Below are positions 7,673-63,978 of a stretch of 64,000 nucleotides of DNA, in pieces; position 1 is the stretch's first letter; the number at the start of each line of letters is the position of its first letter. The position numbers and the translations under genes were made by a program. The stretch is from a virus, in IMG/VR virus record IMGVR_UViG_3300034418_012737, positions 1 through 64,000 of that record. One strand, 5' to 3'. The notes under the pieces are model-generated. The model did no database searches and was not told the origin of the DNA. It worked only from the letters and a program-made list of their open reading frames with translations.

Positions 7673-7681
7673 ATAAATATT
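7673..7681 (-). promoter_or_regulatory. AATATTTAT late-type element
   Basis: Coding-strand AATATTTAT 17 nt upstream of the ATG at 7655, in a 43-nt AT-rich gap inside the tail block. Confidence 0.5.
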
Positions 7682-25336: not shown

Positions 25337-25337
25337 T

Positions 25338-25361
25338 AAAAAAGGGCCGAAGCCCTTTTTA
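25338..25361. terminator. Bidirectional rho-independent terminator
   Basis: AAAAAAGGGC-cgaa-GCCCTTTTTA: a 4-bp GC stem extended by A/T pairs, with U-tracts in both directions. It lies just downstream of the sulfotransferase gene and upstream of the DUF932 promoter. Confidence 0.9.
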
Positions 25362-25363
25362 AA

Positions 25364-26179: not shown

Positions 26180-26182
26180 TTT

Positions 26183-27082: not shown

Positions 27083-27106
27083 AAGACTAATTATAATAAC
27101 AATTTA

Positions 27107-27131
27107 ACTATAAGCCAAATTAGCTTATAGT
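27107..27131 (-). terminator. Possible terminator hairpin after the 88-residue gene
   Basis: Inverted repeat ACTATAAGC / GCTTATAGT around a 7-nt loop. It overlaps the stop codon at 27125-27127 and is followed by AT-rich sequence but no clean U-tract. Confidence 0.45.
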
Positions 27132-27391
27132 CCCAACTCAGCTTTTAAAGCATTCCAAGTAGTTAAGTCGGTTAAATCTTCCCAATCTAATACTTCTTTT
27201 CCATCTGTTCCTATATATACTACTTTACCTTCATCTACTACTCTACATTTCTTACATTGTGTAGTATCTCCATTTACTAAAGTTTCAACATAAGTTTTAA
27301 ACGCTTCAAAGGTAGTTAATCCACTTAAAGGACTGTTAGTTACTTGAGGACCTCTAACTTCATTGTTTTGAACATCAAAATTTACTATCAT
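27125..27391 (-). CDS. Small protein downstream of the beta-roll fibre, unknown
   Basis: 88 residues with TQCKKCRVVDEGKVVYIGTD and repeats of a (L/F)TTxxxxK(T/A) pattern (LTTFEAFKTYVE, LTTWNALKAELG), so it may hold two copies of a short helical motif. It follows the 935-residue fibre gene in the same direction, though a gap of 36 nt separates them. Possibly a fibre accessory. Confidence 0.55.
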   Translation of the reverse strand: MIVNFDVQNNEVRGPQVTNSPLSGLTTFEAFKTYVETLVNGDTTQCKKCRVVDEGKVVYIGTDGKEVLDWEDLTDLTTWNALKAELGL

Positions 27392-27427
27392 GTTATTTGT
27401 TTTTAATATTGTTTATTTATTTTTTAA

Positions 27428-30235: not shown

Positions 30236-30251
30236 GTTTTAGTGTTGTTTT

Positions 30252-30569
30252 TTATGCTATTATAAAGTATTCTTCTGTTGGTGAAAAACCTCTTTCTGCT
30301 ATTATATTATCGCCTCCTTCTGTAGTTAAAAGTCTTGTTTCTCTTCCGGGATCATCCCCACCACCACTTCCCGATGGAAGAGGCCCTCCAGCACCGGCTG
30401 CTGCTGATAAAACGTTTAAAGCACTTATGGTATTTAAAGCACTTATATAATTTTCAAATAAAAGTTGTTCTTGTAAATATCTATTTCTTGCTTCCATTAT
30501 AGGAAGATTTTTTATATCTTCTCTAAGAAGAAATATATTCCAAGGCCCGGGTCCCATTATATTGTTCAT
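30252..30569 (-). CDS. Fibre-associated adaptor-like protein, KNLPI family
   Basis: 105 residues. The pattern WNIFLLREDIKNLPIMEARN, then RYLQEQLLFENYI and a Gly/Pro-rich AAGAGGPLPSGSGG, is shared with the 103-residue protein at 47192-47503. Each such gene sits immediately upstream of a large effector gene (here the 935-residue fibre, there a trypsin-like protease). An adaptor or chaperone that fixes a fibre-borne effector to the virion is inferred. An AATATTTAT element lies 5 nt upstream. Confidence 0.65.
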   Translation of the reverse strand: MNNIMGPGPWNIFLLREDIKNLPIMEARNRYLQEQLLFENYISALNTISALNVLSAAAGAGGPLPSGSGGGDDPGRETRLLTTEGGDNIIAERGFSPTEEYFIIA

Positions 30570-30574
30570 TGTGG

Positions 30575-30583
30575 ATAAATATT
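30575..30583 (-). promoter_or_regulatory. AATATTTAT late-type element
   Basis: Coding-strand AATATTTAT 5 nt upstream of the ATG at 30569. Confidence 0.55.
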
Positions 30584-30606
30584 ATAATAAATTAAAAAAC
30601 ATTAAT

Positions 30607-32634
30607 TTAACCTAAAGAAATTTTTATATCTGTCCCACTTCTATACAACATACCTACTATGCCAGGATCCGATGTAGGGAGTGAACCCGTTTCTAGAAGG
30701 AGATTATTTACGTGTAATGATGAAGTAGTTCTAGCTATAATGTTATGTCCTGCTATAAATGAGCAATCACATTCTCCACAGTTTCCTTCACCTCCTATTA
30801 CTACGGATCCAACACCTGTAGCAGTGTTATTCCTACCTCCACCTACTATAGCATGGTTTCCTGAGGCAACGTTGTTACAACCCCCCCCTACTATAGCACA
30901 ACAACCTGAAACCGTATTGTCCCTTCCCCCACCTATTGTGGAATAAAAACCTGAAACAGTATTACATTTTCCTCCACTTATTGTAGATGAGTTACAGAAA
31001 GTAGCATTACAAGAACCCCCACTTATTACGCTGCAGTTACCTGATCCAGTGTTATAACGACCCCCACCTATTACAGAGCTAACTCCTCCAGCAGTGTTTA
31101 TAGTTCCCCCACCTATTGTAGATTGAGCAGCTAAAGCATTGTTTTGATATCCCCCACCTATTGTAGCCCAAATACTTGAACCAGAGTTAAGACTTCCCCC
31201 ACTTATTGTAGCACAATTACCTGAAGCATCATTTCTATATCCCCCACTTATTGTGGCAAATCTACCTGAAATATTATTTTCTTGACCCCCACCTATTGTA
31301 GCCATACAATTTGAAATTATGTTAGAAATGCCTCCAACTATTATGGAATAATTACCTGGGGAGCAGACAATGTTGTCACAACCCCCAACTACTATAGATA
31401 AAGAAGTGCTGGTAGTGTTATTTCTACCCCCACCTATTATGGAACAAGCACCTGAGGCAACGTTGTTACAACCCCCAACTACTATAGATCTTGTACCTGA
31501 GGCGGTGTTACAATTTCCTCCACCTACTAAAGAATAAGGACCTGAGGCAGTATTATTATATCCCCCACTTACTGTAGATGCATTACCTGAAGCTGTGTTT
31601 TGCTTTCCTCCAGCTACTGTAGTGCAAGAAAGCGATGCAGTATTACTTAAACCTCCACCTATTGTAGAAAATGGGCATGAGGCGGTGTTACAAAAACCCC
31701 CACCTATTGTAGCTCCTGAATTTGAGGCAGTGTTATCACTACCCCCACCTATTGTAGCCTTACAACCTGAAGCTATATTGGAACAGCCCCCACCTATTGT
31801 GGAAAAAATACCTGAGGAAGTATTGCTTTCACCCCCACCTATTGTGGATAAAGTACCTGAGGAAGTATTGCTTTTACCCCCACCTATTGTAGTGCAAGCG
31901 CCTGAAGCAACATTACATACACCTCCATCTACTACAGAGGAATTTGCTGAAACAACATTACATAAACCTCCACCTACTACAGAGGAATAACTTGAGACCG
32001 TATTATTACTTCCCCCACCTATTACAGAACAATTGCTCAATCCTACCGCACTATTTTTATATCCCCCACTTATTGTGGATACCCTGGCTGAAGAAGTGTT
32101 ACACGCTCCCCCACCTATTGTAGAGCAATGACAAGATGCAGTATTAAGAATGCCCCCACCTATTATGGATGAATTGCCTGAAGCATTGTTACTAATACCC
32201 CCACCTACTGTAGCCCCAGTATTTGAGGCAGTGTTATTACGACCCCCACCTACTGTAGATACAACACCTGAGGCAGTGCTGTCACAACCTCCACTTACTA
32301 CAGCTCCAGTCTGTGAAGTGGTATTACAAATACCCCCTGCTATGGTTGAAAATATACTACTAACAGTATTTTCACATCCTCCTCCTATTGTAGAAAAACT
32401 ATCTGCTTCTACCCACATCCTATTACTTCCTGATTGGGGGGTTATATTACCACTTGAGCCTGTGTATACTAAAGCAATACTTCCTGTTTCTCCTACTATA
32501 GAAGTAGTACTTAATAAGTCTGCTACTGTTATTTTCTTGTTACCCCCATCATTTATTATAGGTAAGACATCTGTAGAGGCAGATATTTCTGATGCTCCTA
32601 TTTGTGTAAATTGTGTTATTTTTTTATCAGCCAT
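30607..32634 (-). CDS. Beta-roll tail fibre/adhesin with regular 15-residue IGGG repeats (675 aa)
   Basis: The N-terminal 75 residues form a distinct head (KKITQFTQIGASEISASTDV, then SIALVYTGSSGNITPQSGS). Residues about 80-620 are some 35 copies of a 15-residue repeat, STIGGGxxNTASGxx, far more regular than in 27428-30235. The spacing and Gly/Asn positions suit a trimeric left-handed beta-roll as in YadA/Hia heads. Cys recurs at the same repeat positions (GGGCSN, GGICNT). The C-terminal segment is almost identical to the other fibre. A receptor-binding fibre whose length could change by recombination between repeats. Confidence 0.82.
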   Translation of the reverse strand: MADKKITQFTQIGASEISASTDVLPIINDGGNKKITVADLLSTTSIVGETGSIALVYTGSSGNITPQSGSNRMWVEADSFSTIGGGCENTVSSIFSTIAGGICNTTSQTGAVVSGGCDSTASGVVSTVGGGRNNTASNTGATVGGGISNNASGNSSIIGGGILNTASCHCSTIGGGACNTSSARVSTISGGYKNSAVGLSNCSVIGGGSNNTVSSYSSVVGGGLCNVVSANSSVVDGGVCNVASGACTTIGGGKSNTSSGTLSTIGGGESNTSSGIFSTIGGGCSNIASGCKATIGGGSDNTASNSGATIGGGFCNTASCPFSTIGGGLSNTASLSCTTVAGGKQNTASGNASTVSGGYNNTASGPYSLVGGGNCNTASGTRSIVVGGCNNVASGACSIIGGGRNNTTSTSLSIVVGGCDNIVCSPGNYSIIVGGISNIISNCMATIGGGQENNISGRFATISGGYRNDASGNCATISGGSLNSGSSIWATIGGGYQNNALAAQSTIGGGTINTAGGVSSVIGGGRYNTGSGNCSVISGGSCNATFCNSSTISGGKCNTVSGFYSTIGGGRDNTVSGCCAIVGGGCNNVASGNHAIVGGGRNNTATGVGSVVIGGEGNCGECDCSFIAGHNIIARTTSSLHVNNLLLETGSLPTSDPGIVGMLYRSGTDIKISLG
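30760..32400 (-). repeat. Tandem 45-bp repeat region in fibre gene
   Basis: The plus strand shows a recurring cccccacctattgtag-type core every 45 bp, about 35 times, with variable flanks. It codes for the IGGG beta-roll units. Boundaries are approximate. Confidence 0.85.
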
Positions 32635-32646
32635 GTTGTCAAGTTA

Positions 32647-33054
32647 TTAATAATCTAATTGTACCCCATATAATAAATCCACAGAACCACTTGGGGTAGA
32701 ACCACTTCTTACTAAACCGTTAGAAGCCATAAAAGTAACATTTTCTTGAGGAACAGTAGTTGTAGTAGCCCAATTAAATGTAGCAACAGCCCCAGGATCT
32801 ACTACAAATCCTGCTTGAAGTGATCCTGTTATTACTGAGCAATTTACTAATGTATCTAGAGAAGCGGTGTTAAAAATATCATAATGTTTATACCCATCAA
32901 ATACTCCTGATTCGCTTATGTAATAACGTGAACCTTCTATGTTAAAATAAACAGATTTGCTTACATTATTTGTTAAAGTAAACGTAGTACCATTAGTAAG
33001 ATCGGTAGAAGCAGTGTGGCGAGTTCTTAGCTGTTTTCTAGTTAATGTAGGCAT
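32647..33054 (-). CDS. Small virion-type protein, unknown
   Basis: 135 residues, beta-rich, starting MPTLTRKQLRTRHTASTDLT and ending VDLLYGVQLDY. No catalytic motif. It is the first gene of the fibre unit, with a TAATATTTAT element 4 nt before its ATG. Its last residues resemble strands of phage head-fibre or tail decoration proteins, but that is weak evidence. Confidence 0.6.
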   Translation of the reverse strand: MPTLTRKQLRTRHTASTDLTNGTTFTLTNNVSKSVYFNIEGSRYYISESGVFDGYKHYDIFNTASLDTLVNCSVITGSLQAGFVVDPGAVATFNWATTTTVPQENVTFMASNGLVRSGSTPSGSVDLLYGVQLDY

Positions 33055-33058
33055 GCTA

Positions 33059-33067
33059 ATAAATATT
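33059..33067 (-). promoter_or_regulatory. AATATTTAT late-type element
   Basis: Coding-strand AATATTTAT 4 nt upstream of the ATG at 33054. The stretch ATATTTATTAGCATG is identical (one base aside) to that at 49692. Confidence 0.55.
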
Positions 33068-33734
33068 AATTATCTACATCTATTACTCCCCCTCCTCTCC
33101 ATTTCCCTCGTTTAATAGATACACCCCCATCTCCATACATTTTCATTACAGACCAATCACCAGGTAAAGTTTTTACTTGTTTTTGTATGTAAGCTAAGTA
33201 AAATCTACCACGTCGGTTATCCATTCCCTTTTCTTCACCTTCACCAGCTTTTGGTACTATATCAAGTTGCTTAACAGGGATAGGGGTTTTATCTGCTTGT
33301 TCAATAAAATCACGAACACATTGTACTACGGTAGCTAATACTCTATATTGTTCTTGAAAATTAGTTTCTTCTTCTTGTCCAAACTCTACATCAAATGATA
33401 CATTATAAGAACTATCAAATGTTACTTCTTTTGGACCAGCATTTTTTTCTCCTCCAAGTGCCCTTCTTAGACCTCGACTGTAGTACTCATCACTAACTTT
33501 AACCCACCCCATAAAGTTTACTTTATATTTATAGCCCTTATCATTTTCAAAATTATAAAAAAACGATAAATCGGCTATCCACGGTTTATTATCATCACCA
33601 GGGTGTTTTTTACCAATGTTAGCTAAACGGCTAAGCTCGATAGTAACGGTAGGTTTTGAACTTATGGGGAATGGTTTGGCAGTCCCCTCACCAACCTCAC
33701 TTAGTATCTCCGTATATACCTCGTATAGCTTCAA
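33066..33734 (-). CDS. Probable internal or virion protein with a capsid-targeting-like leader
   Basis: 222 residues. The N-terminus MKLYEVYTEILSE has the form of T4 capsid-targeting sequences (short amphipathic start ending in hydrophobic-x-Glu, the gp21 protease site). The rest is a mixed alpha/beta domain with WIADLSFFYNFENDKGYKYK and a basic, Gly-rich C-terminus (SIKRGKWRGGGVIDVDN). It overlaps the lipoprotein gene by 4 bases. The leader interpretation is an inference by similarity to T4 IP proteins. Confidence 0.6.
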   Translation of the reverse strand: MKLYEVYTEILSEVGEGTAKPFPISSKPTVTIELSRLANIGKKHPGDDNKPWIADLSFFYNFENDKGYKYKVNFMGWVKVSDEYYSRGLRRALGGEKNAGPKEVTFDSSYNVSFDVEFGQEEETNFQEQYRVLATVVQCVRDFIEQADKTPIPVKQLDIVPKAGEGEEKGMDNRRGRFYLAYIQKQVKTLPGDWSVMKMYGDGGVSIKRGKWRGGGVIDVDN

Positions 33735-34116: not shown

Positions 34117-34203
34117 TTAAAATCCGGTTTGGCCTCCACTATGAACCAATGCTTCCATCATATGGTCTCCTAGTGTTTTTAGGTAGTTATAAATTTGTTT
34201 CAT
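34117..34203 (-). CDS. 28-residue peptide between internal-protein and lipoprotein genes
   Basis: Reads MKQIYNYLKTLGDHMMEALV then HSGGQTGF. Its ATG overlaps the TGA of the 694-residue gene (ATGA) and its TAA lies 2 nt before the lipoprotein ATG, so it fits the operon perfectly. The tight spacing is the main support for it being real. Confidence 0.5.
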   Translation of the reverse strand: MKQIYNYLKTLGDHMMEALVHSGGQTGF

Positions 34204-36284
34204 TTAGTAGCTAAAATATCTGCAACTTTTTGCTTCATACTACTAACAGCAGTAGACCATGACTCTTCCTGATTATCTACGTTTTGAGGTTGACGACCTA
34301 TACTAGAAGAATTTAGCCATTTGCGGATAGCAATAATACGTTCGGCTTCCTCATCTTCAAATTGATTTGCTTGTGCATTTTTGATGTAATCGGATTTAGC
34401 ACCCATATACCAAGCATCGTGTGTCCACCTTAATACTTCAACTTGACCTCCTAATTGTCCTTCGGTATTACCCGTAGTGTAATAAAGGTTTACATTGACT
34501 CCAATGGTTTCGGGTAAACTAATAAAATATTCGGCTTGTTTTACCGCTTCATTAAAAGTCATATCTTCTTCAATTTCATAACGAGAATCATGTACAAACT
34601 TACCACCTTGCTTATCCGTGCTCATAGTACGTACTTTGAAAACAAAAACGTGAGGATATTTAGTATATTTATCAAGTCCTTGAGTAAAAGTTTGGATTGA
34701 TCCTTCTTCTAAATTTTCTTTAACATCCTTTGATACAACAGCTTTGAATTTGACACCGGGGCGGTCCATAAATCCTCCATTTATTTTTTTAGCTTGAGCA
34801 TCGGCAGCTTCTTTAGTGTTATGTATGTTCTGTTCGGTTGTTGTACCGTTTTTCGATATAGTAACCATGTACTTTTCTTCATTAAGATTTTCTTTAACCA
34901 AGTCACTAGCAGCATACATTCCTTTACCACCTGGACCACCTTTAACAGGGAACACTATTTCTTTACCACCAGCACCTAATCTGTTAGATTTCATAAATTT
35001 ACCGGGGCCAGTAATGGTCATAGGAAGTTTTTTACCACCTTTTACATTTTTAAAATAAACAGTATCACCTTTTTTAAACTTGAGTTGATCATCAGCATAC
35101 TTTTGTTTTTCATTAAGTGACTCTTCTCTAAGACCATAATCTTTAGGAACTCTAATTTCATTTCCTTTACTACCATATATAGGATGTCCTTGAACATAAT
35201 TGTAGGTGTGTAATTGTTCTTTACTGTTAAAAATAACACAATAATATTCAATTCCCATATTTACATAAGCAGACCCATTCCATTCTCCGACAAATTTAGC
35301 TTTGCTTAAATAATCTTCTTTAGGCACCCATGCTATAGGTTTACTGCTTTTAAAATCTACACCTTTATTATCTAAATGTCTAAAGTCTTCTCTAAGATCA
35401 TACTCATTAGCAGCAGCAGAAATTGCATTATAAGCATCAAGAACGTTAGTGCTAGGATTAATATTAACCCCAAACTTATTTGCTTGACTTAAAAGATCCT
35501 TATATTTCTCATACTTGTCAGGATACTCGGTAAAAAATTGGATAACATTCCAATCCCCTTTAATACCAGTAGCTTTAGCATAGCCTAGAGAACCTAATGT
35601 GCTAGTATCAAGTTTAAGAGGAATAATAGCTTGGAACATATTTTTAATACCACGCAATGGGTTTCTCTCAGCGTTTGATTCTCCCAAGAAGGCTTCTAAA
35701 ATAACATCATTCTCATGTAGATCCGTATATCCTTCTATCTCATTCTCTAACCTACTACGTACCTCCCTTATCTTACCAAAGAGGTCATCTTGTTCGTCTC
35801 TCCAATCCTGTTCGTATTCAATCTCGTCGGCATAATCAAGTTCTTTATCGGTTGGATCGTAGTACCCTTCCTCAAAATTACGATCGGAGCTACCACCGGG
35901 CTCGCTAGCTTTAAAACCAGCATCCTTGATTTTAGCCATGTGCATGTCCATGTATTCTTTGGCTTTTTTACGCACACCTAACTTTTCGGCAATGTTGAGG
36001 ATTTCGGTATATAACCGTGTTACATCGTCATTATATTCATCAACCGTGATTCCCATAGAACCCAGTGCTTTGCGCTCTAAATTGAAAAATTTACGGTGTT
36101 TTATAGCGAAGTTCAATACGGTAGGGGCAGTGTTGCTAAATCCCTGGTGGACAATAGCTTGGTTTTGAACCAATTTATGAGCGCTGGGACATATATCGGA
36201 GAAGTTAAATGTTTCACCCATGATGGTGAAATCGGGCATAGTATTCTCGGATAAAAATTTTCTAAAGTTATTTAATTCTTTCAT
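34200..36284 (-). CDS. Large internal head protein with capsid-targeting leader (694 aa)
   Basis: Begins MKELNNFRKFLSEN, the shared leader of this cluster, with a predicted prohead-protease site after LSE. Further LxE/NLEE-type sites occur in the body (NLNEEKYM, NLEEGSIQ), so it may be cut into several pieces, as some T4 internal proteins are. A KOW-like segment (FKKGDTVYFKNVKGGKKLPM) lies near residues 405-425. The N-terminal third is helical and acidic. Likely packaged in the head and delivered with the DNA. Function after ejection unknown. Confidence 0.7.
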   Translation of the reverse strand: MKELNNFRKFLSENTMPDFTIMGETFNFSDICPSAHKLVQNQAIVHQGFSNTAPTVLNFAIKHRKFFNLERKALGSMGITVDEYNDDVTRLYTEILNIAEKLGVRKKAKEYMDMHMAKIKDAGFKASEPGGSSDRNFEEGYYDPTDKELDYADEIEYEQDWRDEQDDLFGKIREVRSRLENEIEGYTDLHENDVILEAFLGESNAERNPLRGIKNMFQAIIPLKLDTSTLGSLGYAKATGIKGDWNVIQFFTEYPDKYEKYKDLLSQANKFGVNINPSTNVLDAYNAISAAANEYDLREDFRHLDNKGVDFKSSKPIAWVPKEDYLSKAKFVGEWNGSAYVNMGIEYYCVIFNSKEQLHTYNYVQGHPIYGSKGNEIRVPKDYGLREESLNEKQKYADDQLKFKKGDTVYFKNVKGGKKLPMTITGPGKFMKSNRLGAGGKEIVFPVKGGPGGKGMYAASDLVKENLNEEKYMVTISKNGTTTEQNIHNTKEAADAQAKKINGGFMDRPGVKFKAVVSKDVKENLEEGSIQTFTQGLDKYTKYPHVFVFKVRTMSTDKQGGKFVHDSRYEIEEDMTFNEAVKQAEYFISLPETIGVNVNLYYTTGNTEGQLGGQVEVLRWTHDAWYMGAKSDYIKNAQANQFEDEEAERIIAIRKWLNSSSIGRQPQNVDNQEESWSTAVSSMKQKVADILATK

Positions 36285-36293
36285 TCTAAATCG

Positions 36294-36548
36294 TCAATTT
36301 AATTTATTATCTGCTACTATATATCTAAGTGCCCTAGCAATCTCTGCTTTTCCTCCTGGACAGTGTTCGGTCCTGAGGAGGAGATCAAACTCGGCTACTA
36401 GCTTTTCTAAAGCTTCTTGAGTACTCATATGAGCAGCAATGAGTTTCACATTGTTATCAATATCATCATCCGCTGCTTCTTCAATTACTTCATCAAGTGC
36501 TTTATCGTTTTCCTGTAGAAATTTTCTAAATGTGTTTAGTTCTTCCAT
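36294..36548 (-). CDS. Small internal head protein with capsid-targeting leader
   Basis: 84 residues starting MEELNTFRKFLQEN, with a predicted cleavage after LQE. The remaining 70 residues are acidic and helical (ALDEVIEEAADDDIDNNVKL) with a C-terminal KAEIARALRYIVADNKLN. It is the shortest member of the family. Spacing to neighbours is 9-16 nt. Confidence 0.7.
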   Translation of the reverse strand: MEELNTFRKFLQENDKALDEVIEEAADDDIDNNVKLIAAHMSTQEALEKLVAEFDLLLRTEHCPGGKAEIARALRYIVADNKLN

Positions 36549-36564
36549 GTTGTTTTATGTGTTC

Positions 36565-37065
36565 TTATTTTATATATGTAAATAAATTCCCATTTTTAAT
36601 TTCATAAGTATAGGTTTTATTATTTTCTTCATATGAAACTAAACCACCCATTTCTTCAACGGCTTTTTTTATAACTTCTTCTACAATACGGGCGTTACCT
36701 GCAGCTATTAAACCTACTGTAATAGGGTCATTAGGGGTTTTCCCTCTTTGTTTCCTTTTAGTGTCTTTTTTTAAAGCTACCTCCCAATCATTTAATACCA
36801 TTTTTGTTACATTAAAGGGAGTGGGGGTGACCATCCATATATTATGTTTTATAGTATCTATAAGTTCACGCCATGTTTCTTTATTAGCACCTGCCCAATT
36901 CATTGAGTGGCTTAGGTTTTTTGCTATAGATAGGAGTTCTTGTTTTTTAGAGTTTTTTTTAAAAGGCCCAAAAAATTCTTGAATTGATTCCCTAGCAACT
37001 GATCTATTCCTAGTAAACGCTGGGGATTCATTAAGGAATTTTCTAAATGCTTTTAGCTCTTTCAT
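36565..37065 (-). CDS. Internal head protein with capsid-targeting leader and VSY-type C-terminal domain
   Basis: 166 residues starting MKELKAFRKFLNES. The C-terminal 45 residues (IVEEVIKKAVEEMGGLVSYE, then YTYEIKNGNLFTYI) match the C-termini of 37369-37776 and 37798-38382, so the three are paralogues. The middle is basic and helical. Predicted to be cut after LNE during head maturation and ejected with the genome. Confidence 0.7.
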   Translation of the reverse strand: MKELKAFRKFLNESPAFTRNRSVARESIQEFFGPFKKNSKKQELLSIAKNLSHSMNWAGANKETWRELIDTIKHNIWMVTPTPFNVTKMVLNDWEVALKKDTKRKQRGKTPNDPITVGLIAAGNARIVEEVIKKAVEEMGGLVSYEENNKTYTYEIKNGNLFTYIK

Positions 37066-37070
37066 GTTGT

Positions 37071-37367
37071 TTAATAGTTGTCTATTCCAAAGTCGGCAAT
37101 GTTGCCTTTAAATAACTCTTGTTCTTCGGGGTCTAACTTTTCAAATGGAACGCTTAACTCCATTGAGTTGTAGTACTCATATGAGTCTACATAATTGTCT
37201 TTCATATACTGGTCGGCCATTGTTTCTGCTTCCTCATTGCTGTTTGCTGCAACGTAAAGAGTTACCTCTAGTCCTTCCATTTCGTCTTGGTATTTGACGC
37301 TATAAATGGTTTGGTCCGGAGCAATGTTTTCGGCTAAGAACTTTCTAAAGACGTTTAATTCTTTCAT
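37071..37367 (-). CDS. Small internal head protein with capsid-targeting leader
   Basis: 98 residues starting MKELNVFRKFLAEN. The ATG at 37367 is chosen over one six codons upstream because it lies 1 nt after the preceding TAA and restores the family leader. The mature part is acidic with a small alpha/beta pattern (YSVKYQDEMEGLEVTLYVAA). Predicted cleavage after LAE. Confidence 0.7.
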   Translation of the reverse strand: MKELNVFRKFLAENIAPDQTIYSVKYQDEMEGLEVTLYVAANSNEEAETMADQYMKDNYVDSYEYYNSMELSVPFEKLDPEEQELFKGNIADFGIDNY

Positions 37368-37368
37368 A

Positions 37369-37776
37369 TTAGATAGCTTGTCCAATCAAATCTCCTTGCC
37401 CGTTTACTGAGTAAACAAAAGTAAGGTCTGGTACACCGTCACCTTTACTTACGTATGATACTTCACCCCCTAAGCTTTTAACAGCGGCTGCAATTTCTTT
37501 TGCTGCTTCTAAATCTCTCATAAGGTCGTCGTAGTCATCACTATCTTTATCTTCTTCTGTTTCAAAGTATGAAAGCTCCTCTTCGAGTTCATCCATTACG
37601 TTTACTGGTGGGGATACATCATCTCCACTTCCAAATTGTGCTACGCGGGTAAATTCACCACTTGCAATAACATCTTTGGCGTGTTCCCCTTTTACGGCCT
37701 TCTCTAAATCATCAAGTGAGGCTTCGTTGATTTGTCCTTCTGCGAGGAATTTTCTAAATGCGTGTAATTCTTTCAT
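37369..37776 (-). CDS. Internal head protein with capsid-targeting leader and VSY-type C-terminus
   Basis: 135 residues starting MKELHAFRKFLAEG. The C-terminus (IAAAVKSLGGEVSYVSKGDG, then TFVYSVNGQGDLIG) matches its two paralogues in the cluster. The middle is strongly acidic (EELSYFETEEDKDSDDYDDL). Predicted cleavage after LAE. Confidence 0.7.
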   Translation of the reverse strand: MKELHAFRKFLAEGQINEASLDDLEKAVKGEHAKDVIASGEFTRVAQFGSGDDVSPPVNVMDELEEELSYFETEEDKDSDDYDDLMRDLEAAKEIAAAVKSLGGEVSYVSKGDGVPDLTFVYSVNGQGDLIGQAI

Positions 37777-37797
37777 TTTATTAGTAATTTCATTTTA

Positions 37798-38382
37798 TTA
37801 GTAACTTTGAGGGTATTCACCACTAGTAACCCAAAGTTGAAGTGCTAAGAGTCCATATTTGTCTGCAATACGGTCAAGTTCTGCCATAGCTTTTGAGTCG
37901 TTATTTAAGTCGTAAAGGGGGTTGCCTGGCTTACTAATGTCCATATACTCGTTTACCTCTTCACCTTCGTTGGTTGGTACTTCAAATGTTTCTCTGGATT
38001 GGGTAAACAAATCATCTCCTTTAACGTAGTAGTTATATGATTGCCCCATTTCCCCGTAAGAAACTGGTCCTATTTTCTTAACGGCATTTTTAATGATGAT
38101 TATAGCATCAAGGTCCAATTGTGCTTCTTCTATTTCTTCCTCATCATCTGTACTGTTTCTAACGGCGTTGAGCTCCTCAACGGCCTCTTGAGTTTGGTTA
38201 GTTGCGGGATATGTTCCTTCTTCTGGGAAGAAAGCACCATCCTCCATCATGTCCATTGCTTTTTGATGTGCTGGGCTGCTGCCCATAGCTTCAACGGTAT
38301 CGAAGAGCTTATCGAGTGACTCTTGACCAAATTCTCCTCTATCTTCTGCGAGGAATTTTCTGAATGCGTTTAATTCTTTCAT
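37798..38382 (-). CDS. Internal head protein with capsid-targeting leader (first of the cluster)
   Basis: 194 residues starting MKELNAFRKFLAED. It contains the shared VSY-type segment (IIIKNAVKKIGPVSYGEMGQ, then YNYYVKGDDLF) followed by a private C-terminal domain of about 65 residues. Its ATG overlaps the TGA of the 46-residue gene upstream. Acidic overall. Predicted to be processed in the prohead and injected. Confidence 0.7.
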   Translation of the reverse strand: MKELNAFRKFLAEDRGEFGQESLDKLFDTVEAMGSSPAHQKAMDMMEDGAFFPEEGTYPATNQTQEAVEELNAVRNSTDDEEEIEEAQLDLDAIIIIKNAVKKIGPVSYGEMGQSYNYYVKGDDLFTQSRETFEVPTNEGEEVNEYMDISKPGNPLYDLNNDSKAMAELDRIADKYGLLALQLWVTSGEYPQSY

Positions 38383-45871: not shown

Positions 45872-45925
45872 GAATATACGAAGGGAGGGTGGCATTGCCA
45901 CTCTCTCACATGACGTCAAAATGAC
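45872..45925 (-). promoter_or_regulatory. GTCAT/TATATTC promoter module
   Basis: GTCAT pair at 45925-45910 (TTGACGTCAT type), spacer with the palindrome GTGGCAATGCCAC, then TTCG-TATATTC at 45878-45872 and the leader ATGGCATG. Drives the eight-gene operon down to 44352. Confidence 0.85.
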
Positions 45926-45926
45926 T

Positions 45927-47195
45927 TTAACTAATATCCTCAGTTGTCCCTACTTGATAGTAGATTTTACCATTATATTCAAAAGAAGAAGCAGTAGTAA
46001 ATTCCTCAGCATAAAATAATTCAATATTATCCAAATCCTCAAATTTAGGAGTGGACCCATCCCACGCTCTTAAATCTAATTCCCTTGCTGCATTATCTAT
46101 TCTACCTATATATGCCCTAGTTAAACTACCTGCAAATTCTATCCCTAATACTTTCCACACTCCATTTATTTGTACTAAAACCCATGATCCCGAATCCCCA
46201 CCGGCAGAAGGTCTATCGCATTCAGGGTCTACTCTCTTTAAGGAGATTTGGTCTGTGAAAATACAATTTTGGTTTGTTGCAAAACTATCCCATCTTCTGT
46301 TCTGGCTTGTATAAGTCATCTCTATAGTAAGGCCTCCTGCTTCTACTGTTAATTCACAATACCCAGGGTATCTTGCCCCCAATCTACTTCCACACATTAA
46401 TATAGGGTACGAAGAAGGATTTTCTATAACTTCATCAATTTCATCTGATGTAGCAAAAGGTGGGGGAGATGTTATGCCATCATAACCATACTGTTTCCAA
46501 CTTTCATTTACATCTATTACACTTTGGGCTGAAGAGGTTATATAAAAAGTAGCTACATCTACATAATTGTATACCTCTATTCCACCAGTACCAGCAGTAT
46601 TTCCTTTTCTAAAAATAGGAACATAATTTCTAGTACCCCCTAATAAAGTTTTGGGATCAGCACTTCTAAGTGGGTTACTAGCCTCAATTTCTTCAAGTGT
46701 ATTATACCTATGGGACTCAATTAAATCACTTGACATTTCTCCAGTGGAGTATATTCTAAGAAGCCCTACGTGTGCATTTGTTACCCCTACTAAACACCCT
46801 GTATTTGCATCTACTGCAAAACCTCCTATAGTACCATAAGTTCCTTTACTACTTACAAATTGTGCTGCTACTCCTCCTTTCATAGGACTACTGTAATCCG
46901 TAGGGGGGAAATTGGCCCCAGTATCTGTACAAGTAGCGCAATCGGACGTTGCTTCAATTACTCCTACTTCTACTACATCAGTTTTAAATACCTTGCCTTT
47001 TAAGTTAATAGTAGAGGGTAATATTTGATCACTTGATAGTGAACTAAGAGGAAGCTTTTTAGTAACTGTAAATATTATAGCTTTTTCTCCTGTAGGTTGT
47101 CCTTCTACTACTTTTTCCCCATATCCTACTCCCACTCCATCTGGGGTATTTTTAAATATATTAGGTAAATGGTGCTTTATATCTTTAAATTTCAT
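45927..47195 (-). CDS. Trypsin-like serine protease domain protein
   Basis: 422 residues. A full chymotrypsin-fold triad can be read: His142 in GVTNAHVG, Asp213 in NYVDVATF, Ser335 in AGGDSGSW with the classic GDSG. Cys-rich segments lie near residues 85-90. The N-terminal 80 residues (PDGVGVGYGEKVVEGQPTGE) resemble the pre-domain of bacterial Nal1-type proteases. The gene overlaps the KNLPI adaptor gene by 4 bases, as a fibre gene does at 30 kb, so the protease is probably virion-borne and acts on the host surface. Confidence 0.82.
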   Translation of the reverse strand: MKFKDIKHHLPNIFKNTPDGVGVGYGEKVVEGQPTGEKAIIFTVTKKLPLSSLSSDQILPSTINLKGKVFKTDVVEVGVIEATSDCATCTDTGANFPPTDYSSPMKGGVAAQFVSSKGTYGTIGGFAVDANTGCLVGVTNAHVGLLRIYSTGEMSSDLIESHRYNTLEEIEASNPLRSADPKTLLGGTRNYVPIFRKGNTAGTGGIEVYNYVDVATFYITSSAQSVIDVNESWKQYGYDGITSPPPFATSDEIDEVIENPSSYPILMCGSRLGARYPGYCELTVEAGGLTIEMTYTSQNRRWDSFATNQNCIFTDQISLKRVDPECDRPSAGGDSGSWVLVQINGVWKVLGIEFAGSLTRAYIGRIDNAARELDLRAWDGSTPKFEDLDNIELFYAEEFTTASSFEYNGKIYYQVGTTEDIS

Positions 47196-47503
47196 GTTGA
47201 TGCAGGGAAATGGGCAAATAATGTTTTGGATCCTGAGAAATTAGTAAAAGATCCCTCAGGGGGAGAAGAGAGACGAGCATTATAATATATAGTAGGGTTA
47301 TAAGGATCAGTAGATGGTGAAGGACCCCCAGAAGCCGCTGAGGAGGCTACAGCAAAGTTATTTAAAGTAGTAGTAATAAATGTTTCGTAGTTTAACTTCT
47401 CAGTAAGATATTTTTTCTTTACTTCAGATATAGGCAAATTTTTATTATCATGCCTTTTTAAAAAACTTGCCCAATCTCCAGGGGATTCACATGGTATTAT
47501 CAT
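47192..47503 (-). CDS. Adaptor-like protein of the KNLPI family
   Basis: 103 residues. WASFLKRHDNKNLPISEVKK, then KYLTEKLNYETFI and SSAASGGPSPS, parallel the protein at 30252-30569 residue by residue, with unrelated C-termini. The C-terminus ends in a beta-rich segment. Its gene precedes the protease with a 4-base overlap. An attachment or assembly factor for the protease is inferred. Confidence 0.65.
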   Translation of the reverse strand: MIIPCESPGDWASFLKRHDNKNLPISEVKKKYLTEKLNYETFITTTLNNFAVASSAASGGPSPSTDPYNPTIYYNARLSSPPEGSFTNFSGSKTLFAHFPAST

Positions 47504-47507
47504 GTAA

Positions 47508-47516
47508 ATAAATACA
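47508..47516 (-). promoter_or_regulatory. TGTATTTAT late-type element (variant)
   Basis: Coding-strand TGTATTTAT, 4 nt upstream of the ATG at 47503. Two mismatches to AATATTTAT, but the distance is the usual one. Confidence 0.4.
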
Positions 47517-47520
47517 ATAA

Positions 47521-47555
47521 AAAAGGTAGAGACCCAAAAAAAGCCTCTACCTTTT
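47521..47555 (-). terminator. Rho-independent terminator
   Basis: AAAAGGTAGAG / CTCTACCTTTT, an 11-bp stem around a 13-nt A-rich loop, with a U-tract in each direction. It lies 25 nt downstream of the 509-residue head-protein gene. Confidence 0.9.
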
Positions 47556-47579: not shown

Positions 47580-49103
47580 TTATTTATTTCTTACTTCTTT
47601 ATCCATAAAGTCCTGTCTTAGGTCTTCTAAAGAGGAAAGTAGCTCATCTGACATTTCATCAGCGTGCATATCAATTATTTTGTCTAAAACTGTAGTATTA
47701 ATTACTTCGTCTAGTACTTTATCGTTTTCCTCTAACTCAATCATTTCTCTCATTTTAATACCTTCTTTTTCGAAGTATTTTGCAATAGCGTCCTTATACT
47801 GCCCACGTAAATTTCTAGGTATTTTAAAATCAAAGTCTGCACCAAAATCCCCCATGCTTTTCCCGTTACGACCTTGTACACTAAATGATGGTTCAAATTG
47901 TTTAAATGGAGAACCTGTAGTAAGCACTCCAAGAACACGGAAAAACTCTTTAAAATCTTTACCCATATCCTTGGCATCGTTTGCCTCTTTCTGGGAAACA
48001 TAAAGGGTAATGGAATGAAGAGGACCATCCTCAGGGGCTTCCTTCATTGGGTAAAAAGTTGTGGTTACTGCTCCGACTAGATCCTTAGGTACGTCGAACC
48101 CTTCACTTTTTCCTGATTTTTTGGCTGTTTTTACCGCTTTATTTAATGCTTTATATATAGGACTTTTCTTGAAAGTTTCAAGACCGGGGGCGTAATTAGG
48201 ATCACTTCCGAAGTTCATTTCACGCCAATCAACGGGTGAACCAAACCCAAATATCTCATTAGTGGGTTCTTTATCGTTTTCCTTTAGCATATCTTCATAC
48301 CCCATTATTTGCATAGCTGGTACAAAAGCATCATCAAATGCTACTTTATCATCCTCTTCCATAGCGTCTGTCATTTGTATGAAAAGAGGCTTAAGTTGCT
48401 CCTTCTTACCAGGAAATCTATATAATCTAGGGGCAATAAATTGGAATCTTGACTCGAGATCATTCCCGAAATCTTGGGGGTCCCCACCAAAATCCTCTTC
48501 ACCACCATCATCCCTAAACTCTCTCATCATATCTCTACCTACTACTTCAGGATCATCAGATACATTTTGGAACATACTTCTTCTTTCTGATCTGTCTCTA
48601 TCATTTAAATAGGCTTCAATTTCACCTGCTAATTGGGGGTGTGATTTAGCAAATACATCTTTATAAGCATCTACTACTCTTGATTGAGCGTATGGAATAT
48701 CATCTGTATCCCTAGTGGCTTCTTCAAAGTCCTCTTTAAACGAATCCATAATAGCTCTAAGGTCCCAACCTGGTTTATCGAATTTGTCTTCCTCTAAGCT
48801 ATCAAAGTAATCAGCAGCAGCATCTAAATCTTCAGGGGAAATTTCTTCAGCTTCGGGGTTGATAAGGGATTTTTCCTCCATTATTTTTCCTCCTTTCCTA
48901 ATAATAGCGCGGGCATTAGATAAATCAACTCCATCAATATCATCGCTTCCCTCTTCTCTAAATTTTCTATGTAGATAATGGGTTTCTTGTCCTGTCTTAC
49001 CTAAAATATTAACAGCGGCATTAATAATTTCCCTATCTGTTTCTTTGTTACCTGAGGCTTCTTCAATTATGTATTGCCTCCATTTATTCCAGCTAAAGCT
49101 CAT
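47580..49103 (-). CDS. Large internal-type protein with capsid-targeting-like leader
   Basis: 507 residues from ATG 49103 (MSFSWNKWRQYIIEEASGNK). This start is chosen because an upstream ATG would place the late element inside the gene. The leader ends in IIEE, a possible prohead-protease site. The body is very acidic, and the C-terminus (ENDKVLDEVINTTVLDKIID) echoes ENDKALDEVIEEAADD in 36294-36548, linking it to the internal-protein family. A terminator follows. Confidence 0.65.
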   Translation of the reverse strand: MSFSWNKWRQYIIEEASGNKETDREIINAAVNILGKTGQETHYLHRKFREEGSDDIDGVDLSNARAIIRKGGKIMEEKSLINPEAEEISPEDLDAAADYFDSLEEDKFDKPGWDLRAIMDSFKEDFEEATRDTDDIPYAQSRVVDAYKDVFAKSHPQLAGEIEAYLNDRDRSERRSMFQNVSDDPEVVGRDMMREFRDDGGEEDFGGDPQDFGNDLESRFQFIAPRLYRFPGKKEQLKPLFIQMTDAMEEDDKVAFDDAFVPAMQIMGYEDMLKENDKEPTNEIFGFGSPVDWREMNFGSDPNYAPGLETFKKSPIYKALNKAVKTAKKSGKSEGFDVPKDLVGAVTTTFYPMKEAPEDGPLHSITLYVSQKEANDAKDMGKDFKEFFRVLGVLTTGSPFKQFEPSFSVQGRNGKSMGDFGADFDFKIPRNLRGQYKDAIAKYFEKEGIKMREMIELEENDKVLDEVINTTVLDKIIDMHADEMSDELLSSLEDLRQDFMDKEVRNK

Positions 49104-49125: not shown

Positions 49126-49692
49126 TTAAATATTTCCAATCATTGTTTTTAAAACTTCTTTCCCTCCAATCTTACGTGAGTACCACCCGTTGCCAGGTTT
49201 TTTATTTTGGGGGTGGGCTCCATACCAAGTAATATCTTTACCGCCTAATATTGCCCTTACTTTCTCCTCATCATCAATTACAGGTACCCCACCTCTCTCG
49301 TGAAATACTCTATAAGCATCACCACTTACCTCAACATAGTTACCAGGAGATTTTAACTCACTAGTTTTTCTAGTTAAAACGTGCTTAATATGAGGTTTCT
49401 TACCATCGTGACCCATTCCAGTGTGCTTAACACCAAAAGATGTATTCTTACCAAAGTAAGTAACATCTAACTCAGGATCATCATCAATATCAGCAGCCAT
49501 CCAAAAACTTATATCAGGAGCCATAACATCTTCAGGGGAATTAATATTTAAATGTCCCCCAATTGGAGCATAAGCGGTTTGTACTAAATCAAATAGCTCT
49601 CCTTTTGCCTGTTCAAGCTCCTCCCCACTTAAAGGAACATACTCTCCTTTAGGGTAGTCTCTCTCCAGGAGTAAATCTATTAGCTTAATCAT
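49126..49692 (-). CDS. Internal-type protein with leader-like N-terminus
   Basis: 188 residues starting MIKLIDLLLERDYPKGEYVP. The hydrophobic start ending LLLER resembles T4 Alt-type leaders (MELITELFDED). The body is an alpha/beta domain with FDLVQTAYAPIGGHLNINSP and VTYFGKNTSFGVKHTGMGHD, a combination I associate with proteins of large marine phages, sometimes compared with acetyltransferase folds. That comparison is not proved. It has its own late element. Confidence 0.6.
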   Translation of the reverse strand: MIKLIDLLLERDYPKGEYVPLSGEELEQAKGELFDLVQTAYAPIGGHLNINSPEDVMAPDISFWMAADIDDDPELDVTYFGKNTSFGVKHTGMGHDGKKPHIKHVLTRKTSELKSPGNYVEVSGDAYRVFHERGGVPVIDDEEKVRAILGGKDITWYGAHPQNKKPGNGWYSRKIGGKEVLKTMIGNI

Positions 49693-60575: not shown

Positions 60576-60584
60576 ATAAATATT
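60576..60584 (-). promoter_or_regulatory. AATATTTAT late-type element
   Basis: Coding-strand AATATTTAT 4 nt upstream of the ATG at 60571. Overlaps the 3' end of the GT2 gene. Confidence 0.55.
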
Positions 60585-61494
60585 ACAAATAAACTAACTC
60601 ATTTTGATACTCTTGTAAGGAATTAACTGTAATTTTTAAGTTACCCAATTCAAAAGTACCTAATTGATTGTTATCTTTAATTATATCATTTAATTGTTGA
60701 ATATAAGTGTAATCTTCTTGGGTAAAATTATTTCCATCTACCTCAACAACAATATCTTCTCCCTCATTAAACCATATACCTAATGTATTTTTAAGTTGGG
60801 TGGTGAAATTATTTAAGATTAGTTTTTTCTTATACACTACATTATAGTGTGATTTTCTAAAACCCCACTTTTTAATAAAGTTAATATTAGATTCTTGTTC
60901 TACACTTTGATAGTTACCTACTCTAGAAGTTTTACTTACAAAATGGTATACTTGAGCAGGGGAAACTACTTTTTTAAACCCTCCTATTTTATACCTTAGA
61001 TGTAAATCATCATCTTCACAAAACATTTTAAATGTATCACCATCTAATTTTATATAATCTTCTTTTAAACACCCAAAAAATATTTGAGAGCCCCCTTCAG
61101 TTGTATTTTCAGATACAGGATAATCTAAAAACTTTTGGTGATTATAGGATTTTAAATCGGTTCCACAGTCTAAAATTTCTTTCCCAGGATAAGTGTCTAA
61201 GTATATAGGGGGTTCTACCCTTGTGTAAGATACAATAGTATTTTTTTGAATAGCTTTATCCATTAGTTCTACAAACCCAGGTTTAAGAACCATATCATTA
61301 TGGAGAAGGATAATTTTATCTCCCTTAGCACGAGCTACAGCATTATTATAATTTTCACTTAATGTAACTTGATTATTTAGTTCTAAAATTATTTCTACTT
61401 CATTTTTATTAGGGTAAATTTCCCTAATATTATTTAGCAAGTACTTAGTATATTCAGAGTTTGTTTTATTAGTAGGTATAACAAGGGAAATCAT
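60583..61494 (-). CDS. Glycosyltransferase family 2 protein
   Basis: 303 residues. ISLVIPTNKTNSEYTKYLLN is the nucleotide-binding start of GT2 enzymes. AKGDKIILLHNDMVLKPGFV carries the HND metal site (DxD equivalent), and FFGCLKEDYIKLDGDTFKMF then CEDDDLHLRY gives the acceptor-side ED motif. A complete GT-A domain with a short C-terminal extension. Fourth gene of a glycan block and overlapping its neighbour by 4 bases. Confidence 0.85.
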   Translation of the reverse strand: MISLVIPTNKTNSEYTKYLLNNIREIYPNKNEVEIILELNNQVTLSENYNNAVARAKGDKIILLHNDMVLKPGFVELMDKAIQKNTIVSYTRVEPPIYLDTYPGKEILDCGTDLKSYNHQKFLDYPVSENTTEGGSQIFFGCLKEDYIKLDGDTFKMFCEDDDLHLRYKIGGFKKVVSPAQVYHFVSKTSRVGNYQSVEQESNINFIKKWGFRKSHYNVVYKKKLILNNFTTQLKNTLGIWFNEGEDIVVEVDGNNFTQEDYTYIQQLNDIIKDNNQLGTFELGNLKITVNSLQEYQNELVYL

Positions 61495-62288
61495 ATGTAA
61501 TTTTCTTTAAATTTACTCCAAAAATCAGGCACAACATTTGTATAAGCTAATGTTGTGGACCCTAAGTGGAAAATAATTCCTTTATTAAGGAAATCAAAGG
61601 ATTTATAATTATTTATAAAATCTTGATCAGTATTATATAAATAAGGAACTTGACAATTAAAATCTTTTGGTAAAACCGTTAATTCTTCACCAAATAACTC
61701 TTGTATGGTTAAATTAATAGCAGTTTGGTCCATAGCATCTAATCTTATCCCTCCCTGTTTTCCTATACCTTCTACGTGACAATTTATATCTTTTTCTTGG
61801 TAATAAAACTCTTTATAAAATTTTATTTTGTCTTGGAGGAGAGTTAAATGTTTTGGTTTTAAAGTAACAAATCCTGCATTAAAATAAGTTTTTATATAAG
61901 GTACTACTTCTGGGAAGTAGGGAACCCACTGGTTTAGGTGGTAATTAGCTACGCTATTTCCTCCTTGGTCTGGGATAACTCCAACTTCAACATTGTGGTT
62001 TTCTAATACCTCTATAAAATTATAAGCATCCCATCTGATTATAGTATCACCATCAACAAAAGTAAGACGTTCATAATCTCCATAAGAAGGAACTTCAACC
62101 CACCTGTCAAAACACATAGCGGCATAATCATTTTCAACATTTTTATAAGATTTATGTCCTGTTAAAATGATTAAATCTATATTATATTTTTTACAATAAA
62201 ATTTCCAAGTTTCTAAACAAATCTCATAGTTAGGGTGACCAAATAATCCATTGTATCCTGGGATTATTATGGCATTTTTGCTTTTCAT
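61491..62288 (-). CDS. Glycosyltransferase-like protein (GT-A, DGD motif)
   Basis: 265 residues. The start AIIIPGYNGLFGHPNYEICL and YERLTFVDGDTIIRWDAYNF near residue 75 give a GT-A fold with a DxD site. The C-terminal GIIFHLGSTTLAY contains a His suited to GT8-like metal binding. Resembles 53483-54277 in plan. Overlaps both neighbours by 4 bases. Confidence 0.68.
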   Translation of the reverse strand: MKSKNAIIIPGYNGLFGHPNYEICLETWKFYCKKYNIDLIILTGHKSYKNVENDYAAMCFDRWVEVPSYGDYERLTFVDGDTIIRWDAYNFIEVLENHNVEVGVIPDQGGNSVANYHLNQWVPYFPEVVPYIKTYFNAGFVTLKPKHLTLLQDKIKFYKEFYYQEKDINCHVEGIGKQGGIRLDAMDQTAINLTIQELFGEELTVLPKDFNCQVPYLYNTDQDFINNYKSFDFLNKGIIFHLGSTTLAYTNVVPDFWSKFKENYI

Positions 62289-63211
62289 GTTATAATATTT
62301 TTAGATTTTAGGGTGTTAAGATGAGTTTCAATATAGCTACGCATATTAGATTCAAAATGATGTCTTTGATTAGGAATATTATTTAACACTAAAAAATCTT
62401 TATAGTACTTATTAAAACCATCTACCTCAGATGTAGCTAGGGGGCCAGAAGGATACATCCATATTGTTTCTCCTCTAAGAAGATATTGTTGAAAATCTAC
62501 TCCTAAAGGTTTAACATTTTCTGTTATAATCATAGAATACCAATCCCAAGGTCCATACCCTTTCCAATTTTCTTGAAAAGGACATAATTCTTCATAAAAT
62601 TTTTTGCTATATAAATCAAACCACCCCGCCCATTTACTTTTTTTAGTAGGGTATAATTTTATTTCTTCAGAAGAATGTTTATTACTATACCAAACATCGA
62701 AAGTATCAACTTTTAGGTAATCATTATAAGATATATCTACAAACTTAGGATCTGTTATTTCATCCCAAGCACTATCTCCTACTTTTGATATTTGGGGAGT
62801 AAGGACAAAATATTCATTTTTAATTTCCTTAGCAGATTCTATTAAATAGTATAAAAGATGTTCACTAAACAGCATATCAGGGCATACTGACATGTAATAA
62901 TCTACTTCAGAGGAAATGCATTCCCTTTGTAAATTTAAATGCCCATACAACTCATCTCCTTCATATATTTTTTTGATATGGTTGTATTTTTCTAATAAAA
63001 GAGATATTTGATTATATTTTTCAATAAAAAATTCTTTAGGTAGCTTACTTTTTTCCCAATTAATAATATAAGAGGATAAATTAAGACAAGTTTCTATTGT
63101 TATATTATCTTCATCTGAAAGATAATAGTGGGATTTTTTAAGTTGGGAAAAAGCTAATAAGGCATAATCCATTTCCCATGGCATTAAATGACATATAATT
63201 TTTATATTCAT
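62285..63211 (-). CDS. Putative glycosyltransferase-like protein, weak
   Basis: 308 residues. The opening NIKIICHLMPWEMDYALLAF and VDYYMSVCPDMLFSEHLLYY suggest a GT-A-type nucleotide fold with CPDM as a possible metal site, and there are many aromatics (WKGYGPWDWYSMI). No clear family. Assignment rests mainly on context, since it overlaps a glycosyltransferase gene and an epimerase gene by 4 bases each. Confidence 0.5.
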   Translation of the reverse strand: MNIKIICHLMPWEMDYALLAFSQLKKSHYYLSDEDNITIETCLNLSSYIINWEKSKLPKEFFIEKYNQISLLLEKYNHIKKIYEGDELYGHLNLQRECISSEVDYYMSVCPDMLFSEHLLYYLIESAKEIKNEYFVLTPQISKVGDSAWDEITDPKFVDISYNDYLKVDTFDVWYSNKHSSEEIKLYPTKKSKWAGWFDLYSKKFYEELCPFQENWKGYGPWDWYSMIITENVKPLGVDFQQYLLRGETIWMYPSGPLATSEVDGFNKYYKDFLVLNNIPNQRHHFESNMRSYIETHLNTLKSKNIIT

Positions 63212-63978
63212 TTTAATTTACTATAAACTTCTTTAATGCCTTGTTCTAATCCTATGTAATCTATTCCTAAATTAGTAAATGTACCTGAATATGAAGGAAA
63301 ATCTCCTATCCATTCTTGTCTTATTCTCCGTCTAGAGCCTCCTTGGTCACTAATTAAAGAGGCTATTTGGGTTAAAAATAAAGACTTATTATAAGTGCAA
63401 TCAATAATTTTAGGGGGATTATCATTTTTTATGTAAAAGTTAACTAATTTAATTAAATCTTTCATATAAAAAAAATCCATTTTCTTTTCGGCAAACACAT
63501 ATAAATCTTCTCCATTTAAATAACGTTTTATATTAGATTTAATAAACCTAGTATCTAACTCATTTTCATCAAAAACGGCAAATATTCTAATATTATAGAA
63601 ATTATCCTCAATATTACAAATATCTTTTATAATTTTTTTACTTAAACCATAAGGAGTAGTAGGTTGTCCTAACTCAGCACCAGATCCAAATTGGATTAAT
63701 TTACTAAAATGGAATTTATTATAATATAAATTATAAAACATTTGAAGATTTTGATAAAAAACCTCCCCAGTATCAGGTTTAAGACGGCTCCCTCCTTTAA
63801 TAGCCGTATGGATAACTACATCAAAATATTTATCAGTAAACCACTTATCAGTAGCTTCTTTATCTGTAAGGTCAAAATCCTCTCTTGTAACACAAGTTAT
63901 ATCATAAGGAAATAAGCTCAGGCCTTTTTCAAGGCTCTGAGCTATGTATCCATTTCCTCCTGTAATGAGAATTTTCAT
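63208..63978 (-). CDS. NAD-dependent epimerase/dehydratase (extended SDR)
   Basis: 256 residues. MKILITGGNGYIAQSLEKGL holds the Rossmann GGxGxxx loop, VVIHTAIKGG the conserved post-beta4 motif, and TTPYGLSKKI the catalytic Tyr-x3-Lys. This is the extended SDR family that makes activated deoxy- or epimerised sugars. It is somewhat shorter than full epimerases (about 310). It supplies sugar nucleotides for the adjacent transferases by inference. Confidence 0.85.
   Translation of the reverse strand: MKILITGGNGYIAQSLEKGLSLFPYDITCVTREDFDLTDKEATDKWFTDKYFDVVIHTAIKGGSRLKPDTGEVFYQNLQMFYNLYYNKFHFSKLIQFGSGAELGQPTTPYGLSKKIIKDICNIEDNFYNIRIFAVFDENELDTRFIKSNIKRYLNGEDLYVFAEKKMDFFYMKDLIKLVNFYIKNDNPPKIIDCTYNKSLFLTQIASLISDQGGSRRRIRQEWIGDFPSYSGTFTNLGIDYIGLEQGIKEVYSKLK

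Follow-up and report, generated by a model that had tools for sequence, protein, structure and literature searches.

A modular family of probable N-terminal anchor domains in T4-like phages, with a NAL1-like serine protease as one candidate payload

Adaptors, fibres and a protease gene in the window

The DNA analyzed here (the window) comprises the initial 64 kb of a virus record of 79,954 bp, whose source is a T4-like phage known only from environmental sequence. Three minus-strand genes were named in the original prediction, two for small proteins with a KNLPI motif and one for a protease. All three are real open reading frames, located at 30252-30569, 47192-47503 and 45927-47195. They are listed below with the features around them, G004 being a contig of a close relative.

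25321, 39657, 39983, 41948, 42304, 43922, 44335, 45910, 50916, 52863 and 56797, plus strand: matches to the promoter-like repeat ATGACGTCAANATGAC
27428-30235, minus strand: beta-roll fibre-like protein of 935 aa, directly after adaptor 1
30252-30569, minus strand: adaptor 1, a stand-alone KNLPI-domain protein of 105 aa (open reading frame, pairwise alignment, profile)
30575-30582, minus strand: candidate late signal ATATTTAT, 5 nt upstream of adaptor 1
30607-32634, minus strand: second beta-roll fibre-like protein, 675 aa, with no adaptor of its own
45910-45925, plus strand: promoter-like repeat ATGACGTCAAAATGAC at the 3' cassette border, where DNA homology with G004 stops
45927-47195, minus strand: NAL1-like trypsin-family serine protease by sequence, 422 aa, with H142, D213 and S335 (phrog_20754, homologue alignment, profile)
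47192-47195, minus strand: ATGA, 4-nt overlap of the adaptor 2 stop and the protease start
47192-47503, minus strand: adaptor 2, a stand-alone KNLPI-domain protein of 103 aa (profile match 2.9e-38)
47508-47515, minus strand: candidate late signal GTATTTAT, 4 nt upstream of adaptor 2
47521-47555, minus strand: terminator-like hairpin between the cassette and the upstream gene

The two adaptors are paralogous, as had been proposed (44% identity over 54 aa, E = 1e-13). Their common pattern of W, FL and KNLPI was recovered as well, but the spacer between FL and KNLPI counts five residues and not the four that were claimed. A KNLPI profile run over the complete record gave exactly two matches, adaptors 1 and 2, and neither protein had a match in Pfam or PHROGs. 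Each adaptor gene directly precedes an effector gene, in agreement with the earlier reading: a gap of 16 nt separates adaptor 1 from the 935-aa fibre, and the 4-nt overlap of adaptor 2 with the protease gene is likely to couple the translation of the two. Relatives of the 935-aa fibre follow adaptors in three other viral loci (L002, L003, L011). The 675-aa fibre has the same N- and C-terminal types as the 935-aa one.

Residues 4-143 of the 422-aa protein matched phrog_20754 ("protease") with E = 5.4e-15, and a Bacillota homologue could be aligned over most of its length. This NAL1-like family is present in 59 of 149 sampled Bacillota genomes, and the phage protein is about 22-28% identical to its bacterial relatives. 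The triad read from the letters stood: residues 142, 213 and 335 are H, D and S, the His and GDSGS serine motifs are kept in 14/14 bacterial homologues compared, and the VD-x-A aspartate motif in 13/14. D213 was assigned by this last motif and not by the automatic alignments, which misplace the aspartate because the middle of the phage protease is divergent. A profile of the bacterial homologues scored the phage protein at E = 9e-26 in a one-sequence search. When the phage protease was combined with 12 homologues in a profile, the NARROW LEAF 1 structures came up at about 1e-13, ahead of streptogrisins and alpha-lytic protease. The Pfam family NAL1_N gave 14.5 bits on the phage protein, under the curated cut-off of 27, and on the bacterial homologues 15.6 (L095, under the cut-off) and 29.8 (L096, over it). 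The protein is therefore a NAL1-like trypsin-family protease as judged by its phrog_20754, homologue, motif and NAL1 profile matches, and it would presumably be active as an enzyme. A structure prediction, made from an alignment of two sequences, reached pLDDT 28.

The N-terminal region and the His, Asp and Ser motifs are shared with the NAL1 proteases (PDB 7y77, 8hau, 8pme), whereas the phage protein has a divergent middle, a KNLPI protein as its neighbour and an added C-terminal tail of about 45 aa which was not seen in the bacterial homologues. This extension and the middle region had no relatives among all loci. Most bacterial members start directly with the NAL1-like part and, in an alignment read by eye, show no obvious signal peptide; the family alone thus does not suggest action outside the cell.

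No relatives of the protease were found in viral contigs; in one of these searches the query was the window segment with a hand-made variant widening the pattern, and confirmation was by the window sequence only. PHROG 20754 was absent from the 49 other contigs with a KNLPI domain, the cultured-phage collection contained no credible match to the protease, and a plasmid search returned a single weak fragment. The protease pairing consequently rests on one case, this phage among 50 KNLPI contigs.

Split and fused forms of the KNLPI family

Scans of IMG/VR detected the KNLPI domain in 49 further viral contigs, in about 50 distinct proteins, and it was N-terminal in every one of them. A chance motif is ruled out by these contigs and by the E value of 1e-13 between the two adaptors. 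At the sensitivity used, three KNLPI N-termini or full proteins gave no credible match in cultured-phage records, and the KNLPI profile gave none in bacterial genomes. In an alignment of 40 sequences, W11 and E35 were invariant, and P8, G9, R17, L23, E27 and Q36 nearly so. The structure model has a short helix followed by a long one at residues 25-58 (pLDDT 80). We consider KNLPI a previously undescribed family, and docking to the particle is probably its role.

These residues bear on another explanation, in which KNLPI would be a head-targeting signal comparable to the T4 capsid-targeting sequence, and the capsid would contain the protease and eject it into the host. The LPIxE segment does hold an I/L-x-E motif like T4-type prohead protease sites, and nearby genes have leaders resembling head-targeting sequences. 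However, L061 and L063 depart from this site, L053 and L057 have Val in place of I/L, and strict conservation is confined to W11 and E35. Moreover, most of the cargoes are adhesin-type repeats with no evident use inside a head. As the I/L-x-E motif is not strictly kept and the cargoes are adhesin-like, we find head targeting improbable.

Two architectures of the family were observed. The stand-alone proteins (n = 11, 84-105 aa) are directly followed by a fibre-like gene in 10 cases, on the same strand and 16-27 nt downstream, and by the protease in one, so that the distance to the effector ranges from -4 to 27 nt. For some of these fibre-like genes, PHROG families of virion structural proteins and tail spikes were matched, with E values down to 1e-99. 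The neighbours of further KNLPI proteins had been suggested as a check on the idea of adaptor and effector pairs, and the effector proved consistent. The fused proteins, of which some are cut by contig ends, continue beyond the domain for as many as about 800 residues; this part varies in sequence, and a Gly-rich linker often precedes it. The fusion partners comprise DUF285/PARCEL repeats, BspA-type leucine-rich repeats (LRR_5), carboxypeptidase-regulatory-like domains (CarboxypepD_reg) and beta-rich regions; two cargo modules searched against the PDB had no match.

Split and fused forms have interchanged. For example, both forms are present in L011, with 0.8 kb between the two copies, and adaptor 1 clusters with fused proteins of L004 (support 95/89). 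On the KNLPI tree, which has 62 columns and is mostly unresolved, the split form needs 4 changes, at least 2 of them forced by well-supported branches. A sequencing error that splits a fusion is ruled out by the 11 split cases, which belong to several lineages and include ten with a spacing of 16-27 nt. The same relation found as a fusion and as adjacent genes is a classic sign of functional partners, and in our opinion the KNLPI domain and its effector may well be such partners. Whether a stand-alone KNLPI protein recruits the protein encoded next to it is, in our estimate, evenly balanced. Neighbours of a KNLPI gene in a shared operon need not interact. Fibres may not be mounted by the adaptor, given that those next to KNLPI genes possess their own type of N-terminal region and that an adaptor is missing for one window fibre.

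Similar designs are known. Klebsiella phage receptor-binding proteins join a conserved N-terminal anchor to exchangeable C-terminal specificity modules (PMC8262889). KNLPI proteins likewise would have an N-terminal attachment module and exchangeable C-terminal modules, but their anchor sequence is different, undescribed and often split from the effector, their place on the virion is deduced, and a protease, not a polysaccharide depolymerase, is found among their cargoes. In T4, fibritin (wac) has a conserved N-terminus and swapped C-terminal domains (PMC3797505). The resemblance lies in the occurrence of KNLPI in T4-like phages and, in L032, in a neck-to-tail cluster; unlike fibritin, KNLPI has several paralogous copies per genome, a stand-alone form and recent cassette turnover. 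There was no sequence match to fibritin, and no fibritin chain appeared in the PDB profile search with KNLPI. The lateral tail fibres LtfA and LtfB of the T5-like phages DT57C and DT571/2 are split, one connecting the other to the tail (PMC4728585). As in the split KNLPI form, one function is borne by two proteins where relatives have one; however, LtfA is itself an adhesin, and the phages are unrelated. The likeness of KNLPI to all three systems would thus be functional, with no homology to these anchors demonstrated. What appears new is an anchor family with split and fused architectures, and one case with a protease payload.

Small proteins of 74-97 aa with an MSHH/MSHN...FHYG pattern were seen between or beside fused KNLPI genes (L004: 4688-4975, 7504-7797 and 9529-9780; L109: 9587-9811 and 13796-14023). 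The two that were compared with Pfam had no match. They are possible chaperones or partners.

Virion genes, upstream elements and cassette turnover

KNLPI genes lie in virion gene clusters in two other genomes. In the 155-kb genome L032, the gene starts 2 nt after the preceding open reading frame, and the order is head-tail adaptor (phrog_211, 3e-11), two unnamed genes, KNLPI, a small gene, and then tail sheath (4e-80), tail tube (4e-22) and baseplate hub (2e-10). In L111, a distance of 4 kb separates it from the T4-type terminase (4e-12) and portal (1e-67) genes downstream. The virion genes of L032 had no tblastn match in the other loci. KNLPI proteins are probably virion components.

Also, TATTTATAA was present within 45 nt upstream of 18/43 KNLPI genes versus 19/376 other genes (0 in the reverse-complement control), figures that are inflated by related sequences; several of the 19 other genes look structural. 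The shorter TATTTAT is enriched before KNLPI genes. Each of the window adaptors has it 4-5 nt upstream, and the 70 nt that precede the protease start do not contain it. We regard these upstream TATTTAT/TATTTATAA elements as a candidate late signal. The element TATTTATAATAAAA occurs at 7680, 17859 and 49123 of the window and, in other loci, before many KNLPI genes and some structural-looking ones; it is a candidate late promoter of this phage group.

The comparison with G004 (109.8 kb) revealed gain or loss of whole cassettes. Within 33-60 kb of the window, the stretches alignable at the DNA level are mostly 86-98% identical, many G004 proteins are 94-100% identical to those of this phage, and the surrounding gene set is nearly the same. 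DNA homology ends at 45925 and restarts inside the next gene at 48282. From the end of homology to the end of its copy of that next gene, G004 has about 13 nt, where this phage has the 1.6-kb adaptor-protease cassette; the cassette, of two genes, is cleanly absent. Conversely, at a site where the window has about 100 nt (near 50.85-50.94 kb), G004 contains four fused KNLPI genes in a block of 9.2 kb. The fibres and adaptor 1 of the window lie in a 7.7-kb block (25337-33045), and its counterpart in G004 measures 1 kb. These gains and losses indicate that KNLPI cassettes are a variable part of the genome, as expected for surface modules.

A third role for the protease, processing of phage structural proteins during assembly, would fit its KNLPI partner and the late-type element upstream. 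Nevertheless, G004 has nearly the same surrounding genes and cleanly lacks the protease, which is thus not needed for assembly. We judge a maturation role very improbable.

All three cassette borders with G004 touch the repeat ATGACGTCAANATGAC, for which we found 13 matches (up to 3 mismatches) versus 1.1 expected. At several sites GAATATACGAA lies about 30 nt from it. The repeat looks promoter-like, for minus-strand genes. Mobile regulatory cassettes of T4-type phages reportedly have promoter-like repeats at the borders of exchanged cassettes; such cassettes carry a promoter and a stem-loop at their borders. The promoter-like repeat at three borders is a point in common, but the sequence here is different, and the hairpins seen at two sites belong to a region whose hairpin number is not above chance.

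A virion-mounted protease and its main rival

The idea of a modular anchor with exchangeable effectors is well supported for a virion-linked family, considering the split/fused interchange, the cassette gain and loss, and the virion operons in other T4-like genomes. We propose that the KNLPI domain would be the N-terminal anchor module of T4-like virion proteins, mounting exchangeable C-terminal modules on the particle. Anchor and module would form one polypeptide in most phages, and a small anchor gene would precede the effector gene in some. In this phage, the effector of one split cassette would be the NAL1-like serine protease. A single transcription unit would yield both the adaptor and the protease by coupled translation, probably at a late stage. 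Most likely, the adaptor would recruit the protease to the virion, and the enzyme would act on proteins met at adsorption or entry. We give this whole scheme a probability of roughly 0.45.

Its parts differ in strength. That the particle carries the protease is a tentative proposal, a little short of an even chance. That the enzyme cuts host proteins at adsorption or entry is doubtful, and we hold as unlikely to the same degree the full combination of a docking domain for interchangeable payloads with an active, virion-displayed NAL1-like protease cleaving host proteins at this stage. The aim at host surface proteins that the original prediction assigned to the protease found no support here, and the homologous bacterial family has no obvious secretion signal.

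In the main rival reading, the protease would be a cytoplasmic accessory enzyme that serves counter-defence or host takeover, and its only tie to the KNLPI virion protein would be a common transcription unit. NAL1-like proteases are common in Bacillota without an obvious signal peptide, and the protease occurs in one KNLPI phage of fifty. A parallel exists in L011, where a gene with a SET domain (1513-1914; protein methyltransferase-like, PF00856, E = 2.6e-12) likewise overlaps a fused KNLPI gene by 4 nt, which indicates that coupling to non-structural-looking enzymes happens. On the other hand, the cassette consists of only two genes gained or lost as a unit, and the other stand-alone KNLPI genes all have a fibre-like gene directly downstream. 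We see the cytoplasmic enzyme as a possibility to be taken seriously, though one we do not favour.

We found no precedent for a virion-borne trypsin-like phage protease in the papers searched, which is weak evidence of absence. If the virion-mounted scheme is true, such a protease would extend virion enzymes, which mostly degrade polysaccharide or peptidoglycan, to those acting on proteins, and a displayed protease would be the proteolytic counterpart of tail depolymerases. An anchor family without a Pfam or PHROGs match would mark the surface-module genes of uncultured T4-like phages, so that host-range and ecology genes could be found by a single motif. The split form would be a docking system of natural origin, its small adaptor serving to recruit payloads that are separate proteins.

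Several proteins of the window have N-termini in common, for instance MKELNxFRKFLxEN (six copies), MKLYEVYTEILSE or MSFSWNKWRQYIIEEAS. They are encoded at 34200-38382 (minus strand), and also at 33066-33734, 47580-49103 and 49126-49692. We take these N-termini to resemble T4-type capsid-targeting leaders with an I/L-x-E prohead protease site, which suggests a set of head-packaged proteins.

By eye, sulfotransferase-like and glycosyltransferase-like genes come after the adaptor/fibre block in the window (25364-27082) and in L002, L003 and L013. Also, a long run of genes resembling those for sugar-nucleotide enzymes, glycosyltransferases and aminotransferases, likewise recognized by eye, occupies 60583-63978 and continues at 64-77 kb of the record (L116), a high proportion given the length of this phage record.
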